Assembly: GCA_003224235.1 (NCBI GenBank)
Contig: QHYU01000183.1
Coordinates: 1-42,044 of the forward strand
DNA: 42,044 bases
Direction: 5' to 3'
Source: Acidobacteriota bacterium
GTDB lineage: Bacteria > Acidobacteriota > Terriglobia > Acidiferrales > UBA7541
The position numbers and the translations under genes are program-made. How positions within the stretch are numbered: the first letter of the stretch is position 1; each line of letters begins with the position of its first letter. Of this stretch, positions 12,442-22,817 are shown one piece after another. The notes under the pieces were generated by a model. The model was not told the DNA's origin, did not search any database, and saw only the letters and a program-made list of their open reading frames with translations.

Positions 12442-12456
12442 CTGTGTCCCGTGCGC

Positions 12457-12516
12457 GGGCACGGCGTGCCGTGCCCCTACGCGGGGCCTGTAGCCCGGGT
12501 CTTCAGACCCGGGGCT
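12457..12516. repeat. Two adjacent palindromic repeats
   Basis: GGGCACGGCGTGCCGTGCCC belongs to the same family as GCACGACATGTCGTGC at 18600. The neighbouring AGCCCGGGTCTTCAGACCCG resembles the repeat at about 2752. Both can form strong hairpins. Confidence 0.55.
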
Positions 12517-12622
12517 TTTCGCCCCCTGCGACTCAGTCACTGAGACGCGTGTTCTGCGCGCCGAGGCTGCGGCCGGGAACGCCACGCTTGTGCCGCAGAA
12601 AAAGCAATCGACCAATTGGCTT

Positions 12623-12641
12623 GTACGGCAAATTGCCGTAC
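12623..12641. promoter_or_regulatory. Operator-like palindrome of the toxin-antitoxin pair
   Basis: GTACGGCAAATTGCCGTAC is a perfect palindrome with 9-bp arms around one central base, 18 bp before the antitoxin start and overlapping the expected promoter-leader. TA antitoxins with ribbon-helix-helix N-termini autoregulate through such sites, so this is the likely operator. A smaller palindrome CCAATTGG lies at 12612-12619. Confidence 0.65.
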
Positions 12642-12659
12642 GCTTCGCTGGGAGGCTCT

Positions 12660-12965
12660 ATGGCACGACAGCAGGCAGTTAAGGCTCGGAAAAATGCAAG
12701 GAAGCTGGAGCGTCTGGAAGCCAGGGTTACTCAGGAACAGAAACGCATCATCGAGCGTGCCGCGGAGCTGCGTGGAACCTCAGTGACGGAGTTTGTGGTG
12801 GTCAGCGCCCAGCAGGCCGCGACGAAAACCATTAAAGACTTTGAAACACTGAGCCTGCGCGGTGAAGCACGCAAAGTGTTCGTGAATGCCCTGTTGAATC
12901 CTCCAGCTCCCAACGCCGCGGTGAAGGCGGCGGCACGGCGATACAAACAGCGCCTGGGGCGATAA
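12660..12965 (+). CDS. DUF1778/TacA-like antitoxin
   Basis: A 101-aa antitoxin of the DUF1778 family. The N-terminal part (about 18-60: KLERLEARVTQEQKRIIERAAELRGTSVTEFVVVSA) fits a ribbon-helix-helix DNA-binding domain; the C-terminal segment, with LSLRGEARKVFVNALLNPPAPN, is the toxin-neutralising tail. The ATG at 12660 has GGGAGG five bases upstream. It ends exactly where the acetyltransferase begins, a classic antitoxin-first TA operon, and should repress its own promoter through the 12623-12641 palindrome. Confidence 0.88.
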   Translation: MARQQAVKARKNARKLERLEARVTQEQKRIIERAAELRGTSVTEFVVVSAQQAATKTIKDFETLSLRGEARKVFVNALLNPPAPNAAVKAAARRYKQRLGR

Positions 12966-13493
12966 GTGCCCGAGCAGGCGCAGGCTCCGGAGTTCCGATT
13001 CCAGCCTCTCGGACCGCAGCACGACCGCGCAGGTTTCTCCTGCGGGATCGAAGCTCCGGACCACTACCTTCAGAAGCAAGCAAGCCAGGACATCAAGAAG
13101 CATGTCGCCGTGGCGTTGGTGCTCACGCCCGATGGCAAGACGATCGCCGGCTACTACACCTTATCGCAGTATTCCGTGGAGCTGGGCGTCGTCCCACAAG
13201 AGGCCGCGAAAAAGCTTCCGAAATACCCGGTAGTGCCGGCAACCTTGATCGGTCGTCTTGCGGTGAGCCGCGCATTCCGTGGGAGAGGGCTGGGGGAGCT
13301 GTTGCTGATGGACGCGCTGCACCGATGCCTGATGGGAACCAGGCAAGTTGCGTCGGCTGCCGTCATTGTGGATGCTAAGGACGCGCAAGCAGTGGGTTTT
13401 TACAAGAAGTACGAGTTTATGGAACTGCCGAAGATCCCCAAGCGACTGTTCCTGCCCATGGCCACGATCGTGAAACTGTTGTCTTTTTTCTAA
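12966..13493 (+). CDS. GNAT-family toxin (TacT-like)
   Basis: A 175-aa GCN5-type acetyltransferase. TacT-like toxins acetylate the amino group of charged tRNAs and stop translation. The acetyl-CoA loop RGRGLG is at about residues 105-110 after LIGRLAVSRAF, and the general-acid Tyr in FYKKYEF is near 149. The N-terminal part has the toxin-type pattern FSCGIEAPDHYLQKQASQDIKK. The GTG start at 12966 immediately follows the antitoxin stop, giving zero spacing and translational coupling. The length and motif order are normal, so the toxin looks intact. Confidence 0.88.
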   Translation: MPEQAQAPEFRFQPLGPQHDRAGFSCGIEAPDHYLQKQASQDIKKHVAVALVLTPDGKTIAGYYTLSQYSVELGVVPQEAAKKLPKYPVVPATLIGRLAVSRAFRGRGLGELLLMDALHRCLMGTRQVASAAVIVDAKDAQAVGFYKKYEFMELPKIPKRLFLPMATIVKLLSFF

Positions 13494-17352: not shown

Positions 17353-17705
17353 GGTTATCGGAATTTCTCTCGCCGGAAGACAGAACGCCTTTAAAGCATC
17401 AGCAGCCGGGGCACAACGGCCACCGCGACAATTTTGTGTCGGTGCAGCTCGCGGGCCATGCCTTGCAAGCCAAAGTTCCCGGCGAGGACACCTCGCATAA
17501 AACGCAAAGAGACTAAGAACTCGTTGGAGCGAATTCTCGGCTCATATCCAGAGCCCGTAATGTATGCAACACTGGAAACACCGATTAGAAATCGCAATTG
17601 AACGTAAAACTCTTCTGCCCTTTAGGCGCGTAATGCCCGTCTCGGCAGAGAGTTTTTGAGGCCATCTATCTAGGGCCATGTTCGTGCCCACTTAGGGTCC
17701 GTTCT
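17353..17705. other. Intergenic region, no gene supported
   Basis: Short open frames exist on the minus strand, but none shows conserved features. No RNA gene was recognised. Confidence 0.3.
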
Positions 17706-18308
17706 CTATGCCTTCACCTCTTGTTCTTGCGCCGGGCGAAGGGGGAGCGCGCAATAATTTGCTTCGCTGAAGCCTTCGGTGTCTATCCCAAAAGCGTGGT
17801 CGAACCGCGCGCGGTAGTTTTCCCAGGCAATGGCTGCCGTCAACTCGACCAGTTGCGCCTCGGAGAACTCTTCTGTGAGACGCGAGAAGAGCTGCTCAGG
17901 CACATCTACCGGGGTTTGGGTCATATGGTCCGTATATTCCAAGACAAGCCGCTCGGTCGGCGTGAACAGCGGGCTCGTCTGGTAGCTCGGGAGCGCCTGG
18001 AGCTTCTCAGCGGAAACGCCGGTTTGTCTGCTGACCGCAGACCCGATGTCGATTCAAAAAGGGCAGCCAATGAGAGTCGCGGCCCTCAATTGGACCAGAT
18101 TTTTGAGAGAAGTCTCCACCAAGCGGCTGCCGAGGAAAGCCTGTTCCATCTGTCCATATCCCCAGAGAATCCTGGGGTGATGAGAAGTAATCTGAACGGG
18201 CATCACGACCTTTCCCAGCTTCCGCTTCGTAAGCCAATAGAAAAGCCTAACCAGAAGCCCGCTGAGTAAACCTTTCTTGCGGGGATCAGCTCCGGAGATT
18301 CGCGCCAT
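17706..18308 (-). CDS. CMD/AhpD-like selenoprotein with CxxU centre (TGA read through)
   Basis: This would be a peroxidase-type redox protein of the carboxymuconolactone decarboxylase/AhpD superfamily, 200 aa if the in-frame TGA at 18056-18054 is read as selenocysteine. Around it the translation is LVQLRAATLIGCPF-U-IDIGSAVSRQTG; in Cys homologues the motif is GCPFC with the same flanks, so Sec replaces the second catalytic Cys. The frame stays open for 115 codons after the TGA and keeps the family pattern (SPLFTPTERLVLEYTDHMTQTPVDVP, FSEAQLVELTAAIAWENYRARF). A hairpin with GGUCA loop follows at the expected distance. ATG 18308 has AAGGAG seven bases upstream. The N-terminus has a short hydrophobic/basic stretch (LLVRLFYWLTKRKL). 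A conventional call would give two truncated ORFs. No selA/B/C/D is in the window. Confidence 0.82.
18019..18056 (-). promoter_or_regulatory. Bacterial SECIS-like hairpin after the UGA codon
   Basis: On the minus strand, 17 nt after UGA, a perfect 6-bp stem GUCUGC/GCAGAC closes the 5-nt loop GGUCA. A lower CGG/CCG stem is separated by an AAA bulge. Bacterial SECIS elements have a small apical loop with G at the first positions about 16-37 nt from UGA, and the E. coli fdhF loop likewise carries GGUC. The element would recruit SelB. Confidence 0.75.
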
Positions 18309-18599
18309 GACGGTCTCCTTGCCACACTGCTCTCGGGTACCAGCGTGGACCTCGATTCTAAGATACTCCACGGAGGGAACAAAGGCAGGAGTCTGGCTTT
18401 ACGGCACGGCTGTAAAGGCGTGCCCTGACGAAGAACTTGAGTTCTCGCACAGGCTCTGAAAGCCGTGCTCTGACGAGAAGCGCGCCACCCTCGCCTGCGG
18501 CGGGCTTGGGAGGGCAACATCTCGCGCGCAGACAGGCAGGAATGATGTCCTACCCCATTGTTGCTCGGGGAGAGGACCGGCAAGAGTGCCGGTCCCACT

Positions 18600-20538: not shown

Positions 20539-20632
20539 TGGCGCGCCCGGAGAGATTCGAACTCCCGACCTTCTGGTTCGTAGCCAGACGCTCCACAGCA
20601 TAAGCTACGCAAACTGAGCGAGATCCAAGCGC
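20539..20632 (-). tRNA. tRNA-Arg(ACG), abnormal D-arm (possible relic)
   Basis: The 3' two-thirds is canonical: anticodon arm TCTGG-CTACGAA-CCAGA with anticodon ACG, variable AGGTC, T-arm GGGAG-TTCGAAT-CTCTC, acceptor CGGGCGC, discriminator G and encoded CCA. A matching 5' acceptor GCGCTTG exists (with G-U pairs), and GCTC/GAGC can form the D-stem. However, the segment between acceptor and D-stem is GATCTC (6 nt rather than 2), and the D-loop is 22 nt long without the GG pair. Total length is 94 nt instead of about 77. A functional gene is doubtful; an integration or recombination scar is plausible. Confidence 0.6.
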
Positions 20633-21402: not shown

Positions 21403-22817
21403 GTGCCGACCAGGAGATTGTCCATGCGCAAGATCAAGGAAGTCCTTCGTCTGAAGTTTGAATTAGGCCTAGGGCAACGGCAGATCGCCCGCAGTTGCTC
21501 GATCAGCCAGAGCACGGTGCATAACTATCTGAAGCGGGCAGCAGCGGCAGGCCTGGGGAAGATAGACCAGCCGAGCGGAAATCCCAACGTCCCCTCCCCG
21601 AGTTTCGTTCTTTACAGGATCAACTGCAGCGGCATCCCCATCTGACCTTACAACTGGCGTGGGAAGAGTACCGGCAGGCGAACCCGGAGGGCTATCGCTA
21701 TAGCTGGTTTTGCGAGCGGTATCGGAAGTGGCTGCGAAAACAGGATGTGGTCCTGCGCCAGGAGCACAAGGCCGGCGAGAAGGGGTTTGTCGACTGGGCC
21801 GGAGCGACGATCCCGGTGCAGGATCCTGTCACCGGAGCGATCTGGCAGGCGCCGCTGTTCGTGATGGTGCTGGGCGCGAGTTCCTACACTTACGCCGAAG
21901 CCACACGCGATCAGCAGTTAACCTCGTGGATCAGCGCGCACATCCACGCCTTCGAATATTTTGGCGGAGTGCCGCGCCTTCTGGTCCCGGATAATCCACG
22001 AACCAGTGTGAGCCGAGCTTGCCGCTATGATCCGGATTTGAACCCCACCTACCAGGAGATGGCCATGCACTACGGCGTCGGGGTCGTGCCGGCGCGTCCC
22101 TATCGCCCCCGGGACAAGGCGAAGGCCGAAGTCGGCGTGCAAGTCGTCCAACGCTGGATCGTCGCGGCGCTGCGTCATCGGCAGTTTTTCTCACTCGAAG
22201 ATCTGAACCGGGTGATCCGAGAACTTCTGGACAAGTTGAACCACCGCCCCTTCAAGAAGCGTGCGGGATCGCGTGCCAGCCTGTTCGAGTCCGTAGAACG
22301 CAGCGCGCTGCGGGCGCTGCCGACCGAGCGGTACGACCTGAGCCAGTGGTCGCGCACCCGTGTGAACATCGACTACCACATCGCGTTCGAGGCCAACCTC
22401 CACAGCGTGCCCTACACCCTGGTTCACGAACTGGTGGAAGTCCGGGCCACACCGGCGACGGTCGAGATCTTCCACAAGGGACAACGCGTGGCGTCCCATC
22501 TCCGCGGGCGTGGACGAGGACAGGTGTTCACTCAGAGAGAGCACCGGCCGAAGAGTCACCAAGCGCATCTCGAGTGGACTCCCTCGCGCATGGTGAACTG
22601 GGCGCAGCACATCGGACCGCACACGGCACGCTTGTTCGAGCGCATCCTGGAAGAGAAGCCGCATCCGGAGATGGGCTACCGATCGTGTCTCGGGATCATC
22701 CGGCTCGCCGAACAATCTACCAACGCGGCGACTAAAGATGCGCAACTTCATGTGCGACTGCCCCACCGAGGGGGGTGCCTTCTCCCGAAGATGTCACCAT
22801 TTGTTACGCGAAGCTGA
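21403..22817 (+). pseudogene. istA: IS21-family transposase IstA, frameshifted and 3'-truncated
   Basis: The first frame (21403-21645) encodes the helix-turn-helix part ([34 protein letters not shown]). It then shifts: from about 21627 the sequence continues in another frame as [24 protein letters not shown]. The DDE core follows: Asp in [10 protein letters not shown], Asp in [11 protein letters not shown] and Glu in [14 protein letters not shown]. The normal spacer between the HTH and core is partly deleted. IstA-like sequence stops near [12 protein letters not shown] (about 22715), and the last residues to 22817 are unrelated. The C-terminus and the istB helper ATPase gene are missing, so the element cannot move by itself. 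The 650 bp before it (20650-21250) hold an imperfect repeat (GACCGGCGGGGCA at about 20692 and 20831) but no supported gene. Confidence 0.85.

Follow-up and report, generated by a model that had tools for sequence, protein, structure and literature searches.

The locus at positions 17706–18308 (minus strand) of the window, by which we mean the whole 42,044-nucleotide stretch of DNA analyzed, almost certainly encodes one redox selenoprotein that belongs to a known type and comes from a soil acidobacterium. In the reading that we hold with high confidence, SelB carrying Sec-tRNA-Sec (anticodon UCA) binds a hairpin at 18026–18042, and the in-frame UGA at 18056–18054 (minus strand) is decoded as selenocysteine (Sec85) in a 200-residue redox protein with a CMD fold and a C82-P-F-U85 motif. 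The frame runs from 18308 to 17706 through 84 codons, the TGA, and a further 115 codons to a TAG (200 codons in total); the fused product begins MARISGADP, reads LIGCPF-TGA-IDIGSAVSRQ around the UGA, and ends EVKA-TAG. A ribosome-binding site, AAGGAG (18315–18320, minus strand), can be read directly from the sequence 6 nt before the ATG at 18308. The coordinates and sequence of the gene and its TGA are as an earlier note on this DNA had them, and, as that note predicted, ORF calling with table 11 breaks the gene, into ORFs at 18054–18371 and 17706–17942.

The fused product matches Pfam CMD (PF02627; E 6.6e-8, 32.9 bits against a curated cut-off of 23) over residues 51–126, a match that spans the UGA; the earlier note had described family-typical sequence on both sides of it. 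The AlphaFold model (pLDDT 86, 22-row alignment) is all-helical and matches AhpD-like peroxidase-related structures over its full length (6k40, Z 22.2, 2.2 Å, 180 residues; 2oyo, Z 21.7). Sec85 would take the place of the second, peroxidatic cysteine of AhpD, and Cys82 that of the other AhpD cysteine. The Sec85 selenolate would attack an electrophile such as a peroxide or disulfide, after which Cys82 would resolve the product as a selenenylsulfide and a cellular dithiol would reduce the selenenylsulfide. Judged from fold and motif, Sec85 and Cys82 probably pass through this redox cycle, and the protein is likely to reduce peroxides or disulfides.

The debrominase Bmp8 is also among the best full-length matches of the window protein (sequence E 6.6e-9, profile E 6e-12, fold Z 20.0 over 184 residues), and deiodinases use Sec for dehalogenation, which by analogy would allow a Sec protein whose chemistry is reductive dehalogenation rather than peroxide or disulfide reduction. 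We consider this chemistry unlikely: identity to Bmp8 is only 18–19%, the AhpD-like peroxidase-related structures score equally well or better, and no halogen-related neighbors were noticed. The resemblance to Bmp8-type debrominases is one of sequence and fold. Among the neighbors of 34 loci no conserved partner gene was found outside very close relatives, and the neighbors give no hint of a substrate. A literature search on the mechanism of Bmp8 and the function of YnjA, a Cys-containing relative from E. coli, returned nothing usable.

The length of the open frame, to which the earlier note had drawn attention, is as described, but the window holds 11 TGAs preceded by 80 or more open codons and followed by 100 or more; openness alone is thus not evidence, and the argument has to draw on homology, covariation, and machinery instead. 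The same 11 open-flanked TGAs, together with the two ORFs that standard calling yields, would suit an ordinary stop codon in a pseudogene or between two short genes. We regard that reading as very improbable. Across 84,980 species genomes, a homologue search returned 25 related loci, 24 of them readable at the UGA site, and the same codon is TGA in 23 of these and TGC in one. The TGA-containing homologues span three phyla, most belonging to Acidobacteriota, two to Actinomycetota, and one to Myxococcota. Substitutions relative to close homologues fall mostly at third codon positions both before and after the UGA, a selection pattern that argues, as does the covarying hairpin described below, against a stop. 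The Cys homologues (n = 49), when aligned as had been suggested, carry TGC or TGT at the UGA site.

The bSECIS hairpin (18026–18042, minus strand) consists of a 6-bp stem (GUCUGC/GCAGAC, 18042–18037 paired with 18031–18026) and a 5-nt GGUCA loop (18036–18032). The hairpin that the earlier note saw 11 nt after the UGA is real, with the qualification that this distance applies to the stem, the loop starting at 17 nt. Published constraints on bacterial SECIS elements comprise a loop of 3–9 nt, a stem of 4–16 bp, a G among the first two loop bases, and a UGA-to-loop distance of 16–37 nt (PMC13188914); the comparison with a bSECIS model that had been proposed shows that the hairpin lies within all of these (5-nt loop, 6-bp stem, GG, 17 nt), and the second loop base, G, is invariant across the family. 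Across 31 homologues, 96.2% of cells in the six pairs remain paired, and five of the six show double changes (25 in all, counted over related sequences and hence not independent events), values that none of 500 shuffles matched; registers slid along the alignment are only 31–52% paired. When synonymous codons were re-drawn for the same proteins, 3.23 ± 0.19 of the six pairs were expected versus 5.81 observed, and full 6/6 pairing fell to 2.7% versus 81% observed. Given its protein, the window sequence taken by itself would have a perfect stem by chance in 0.9% of cases. Covariation in the hairpin thus exceeds what codon choice permits. Pairing at this position averages 2.3 of 6 in Cys homologues versus 5.0 in all Sec forms, and synonymous change in the SECIS codons is marginally reduced among close homologues (p 0.03, 7 codons), a difference on which we place no weight.

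The host genome (4.57 Mb, 99.4% complete) contains the machinery that the earlier note had proposed to look for: a tRNA-Sec with anticodon UCA (selC; C24:11254–11348, 67.8 bits) and matches to selA (E 4e-160), selB (E 2.5e-109), and selD (E 8.7e-109). The other candidate above the tRNA-Sec cut-off is a tRNA-Ser. The selD gene (G000:C159:44109–45047, L043) has one in-frame TGA near its N-terminus, so SelD is itself probably a selenoprotein. Of 396 genomes surveyed in the host phylum, 94 contained a match and 33 of these at least one TGA form; selB was present in 32 of the 33, versus 28 of the 61 in which every form was non-TGA (Fisher p 2e-7). The remaining TGA-bearing genome (G110) has no selB at the threshold used.

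Presence of Cys at this site in homologues would also fit a suppressor tRNA reading the UGA as Cys or Trp and not Sec, and opal-reading tRNA-Cys occurs in some bacteria; we give this very little credence in view of the complete Sec pathway, including tRNA-Sec (UCA), the conserved SECIS, and the tracking of selB by TGA forms. Regulatory termination at the UGA, by which low selenium would yield an 84-residue product acting as a sensor or decoy, has in its favor only that Sec insertion competes with termination in general, and is highly unlikely given that a product this short would be missing roughly half of the helical fold (helices 83–172 in the model). The locus thus has a UGA within a continuous homologous protein, sel genes in the same genome, a bSECIS element, and aligned Cys homologues, the features tested for in bacterial selenoproteins, and decoding of the UGA at 18056–18054 as selenocysteine in the cell is well supported on this comparative evidence, much of which counts related sequences rather than independent events.

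CxxU selenoproteins of the CMD and AhpD-like kind have been on record since 2005, from the Sargasso Sea (PMC1088965), in keeping with the earlier note's assignment of the gene to an established family, and they appear in later surveys (PMC13188914) and current reviews. They share with the window protein the CMD superfamily and a Sec in CxxU; the kind is therefore not new, and the difference lies in the subgroup. The nearest NCBIfam model, NF053654 (GroundWater_YciW, YciW-related (seleno)protein), matches the window protein over its full length at 131.5 bits, short of the 310-bit cut-off; TIGR01926 (peroxidase-related enzyme) gives 23.5 bits against 81.8, and the window protein is below the cut-off of every NCBIfam model matched. 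The related QDIN group has CxxU and a hairpin at the same place, with a CxFU-QDIN motif where the window protein has CPFU-IDIG. One of its members (L054) passes NF053654 with 311.8 bits and the window protein does not, which places the window gene in a sister subgroup, of known kind, without an NCBIfam model.

The assignment to the CMD superfamily with a CxxU motif made in the earlier note stands, but the protein falls outside AhpD proper and belongs instead to a relay-less, YnjA-like branch. The AhpD proton relay, defined for PA0269 and M. tuberculosis AhpD, comprises five residues: a Glu 12 residues before the first Cys (C-12), that Cys, a Tyr/His, the second Cys, and a His at +4 (PMC3141380). 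The window protein shares the CMD fold and the C-x-x-C position with these two proteins but lacks their relay Glu, Tyr/His, and His. The five positions are occupied by Asn70, Cys82, Phe84, Sec85, and Gly89, so that only Cys82 and Sec85 are retained, and a strict test for AhpD (Glu at C-12, Tyr/His before the second Cys, His at +4) excludes it. Among 115 homologues (66 Sec and 49 Cys), Asp at +2 occurs in 42 Sec forms, of which 40 have no relay Glu and 37 no relay His, and the relay His is present in 44 of the 49 Cys forms. As an observation apart, CMD homologues from several acidobacterial genomes (L092, L094, L097, L117, L119, L123, and L127) carry Thr or Ser in place of Sec/Cys (CKYT, CQYT, and CPYS).

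The relay-poor sequences form one branch of 47 rows (42 Sec and 5 Cys, support 0.84) in a tree whose sequences were collected together with the window's own family, which favors Sec forms; a smaller, more careful tree requires a minimum of five Sec/Cys changes over all its rows. The branch includes E. coli YnjA and its Aeromonas and Klebsiella homologues, which group with the window protein, read CxFC-xDI with Cys in place of Sec, and likewise lack the relay Glu and His. The E. coli and Klebsiella copies adjoin genes for TVP38 and ABC transporters, an arrangement that the window does not show. Relay loss is thus a property of the branch, with Sec in most sampled members. The relay is also lost in Cys proteins of the branch (YnjA and relatives), so its loss is not strictly tied to selenium, and the idea that relay loss followed the gain of Sec is weakened by the Cys proteins lacking it (L033, L055, and YnjA).

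A selenolate would already be ionized at neutral pH, making a general base unnecessary, and the site of the window protein would be expected to work without the relay. We tentatively put forward, while thinking it rather doubtful as a whole, a Sec-dominated relay-less CMD branch, patchy in acidobacteria and sporadic elsewhere; in such a branch, Sec might make up for the missing AhpD relay through its low pKa, and the substrate might not be a classical alkyl hydroperoxide.

The distribution of the gene is patchy, only 11 of 61 relatives, many of the same family, having a match, with TGA in all 11. A 697-bp unit (17701–18397, minus strand), comprising the gene plus 89 nt upstream and 5 nt downstream, recurs at 96.8% identity in a genome from a different genus in the same family (G424; L009/L078, 204–900), where the flanks are unrelated on both sides; other homologues in relatives show about 36–47% protein identity. 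A dispersed repeat (18399–18479) stops within 2 bases of one edge of this unit, as do many of the dozen or so copies of it that the host genome contains. The near-identical copy suggests that a single gene was recently transferred or rearranged, or the short G424 contig may be misassigned to that genome. Among viral contigs no relative was confirmed, and plasmid matches were all below 60% identity, the five examined in detail having no TGA at the site. Elsewhere in the window, Rfam reports a tRNA at 20542–20614 (minus strand; 42 bits) that is absent from ARAGORN output and may be degenerate, and by eye adjacent ORFs at 12444–13493 (plus strand) resemble a DUF1778/GNAT toxin-antitoxin pair and ORFs at 21403–22817 (plus strand) an apparently split IS21-type transposase.

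The gene is a well-supported case in which ordinary gene calling splits a gene whose product scores below the cut-off in every NCBIfam model that it matches. The host has a second CMD selenoprotein (G000:C175:3119–3571, L047), a CxxU protein of the same superfamily 28% identical to the window protein. Unlike the window protein, it keeps the full Glu-Cys-Tyr-Sec-His relay (GCEYU-TRAH), and its hairpin (GCUUC-GGC-GAAGC) lies in another register. The host genome thus offers a natural pair, one CMD selenoprotein with the AhpD proton relay and one without it, which makes whether Sec can replace a general base directly testable within one fold.
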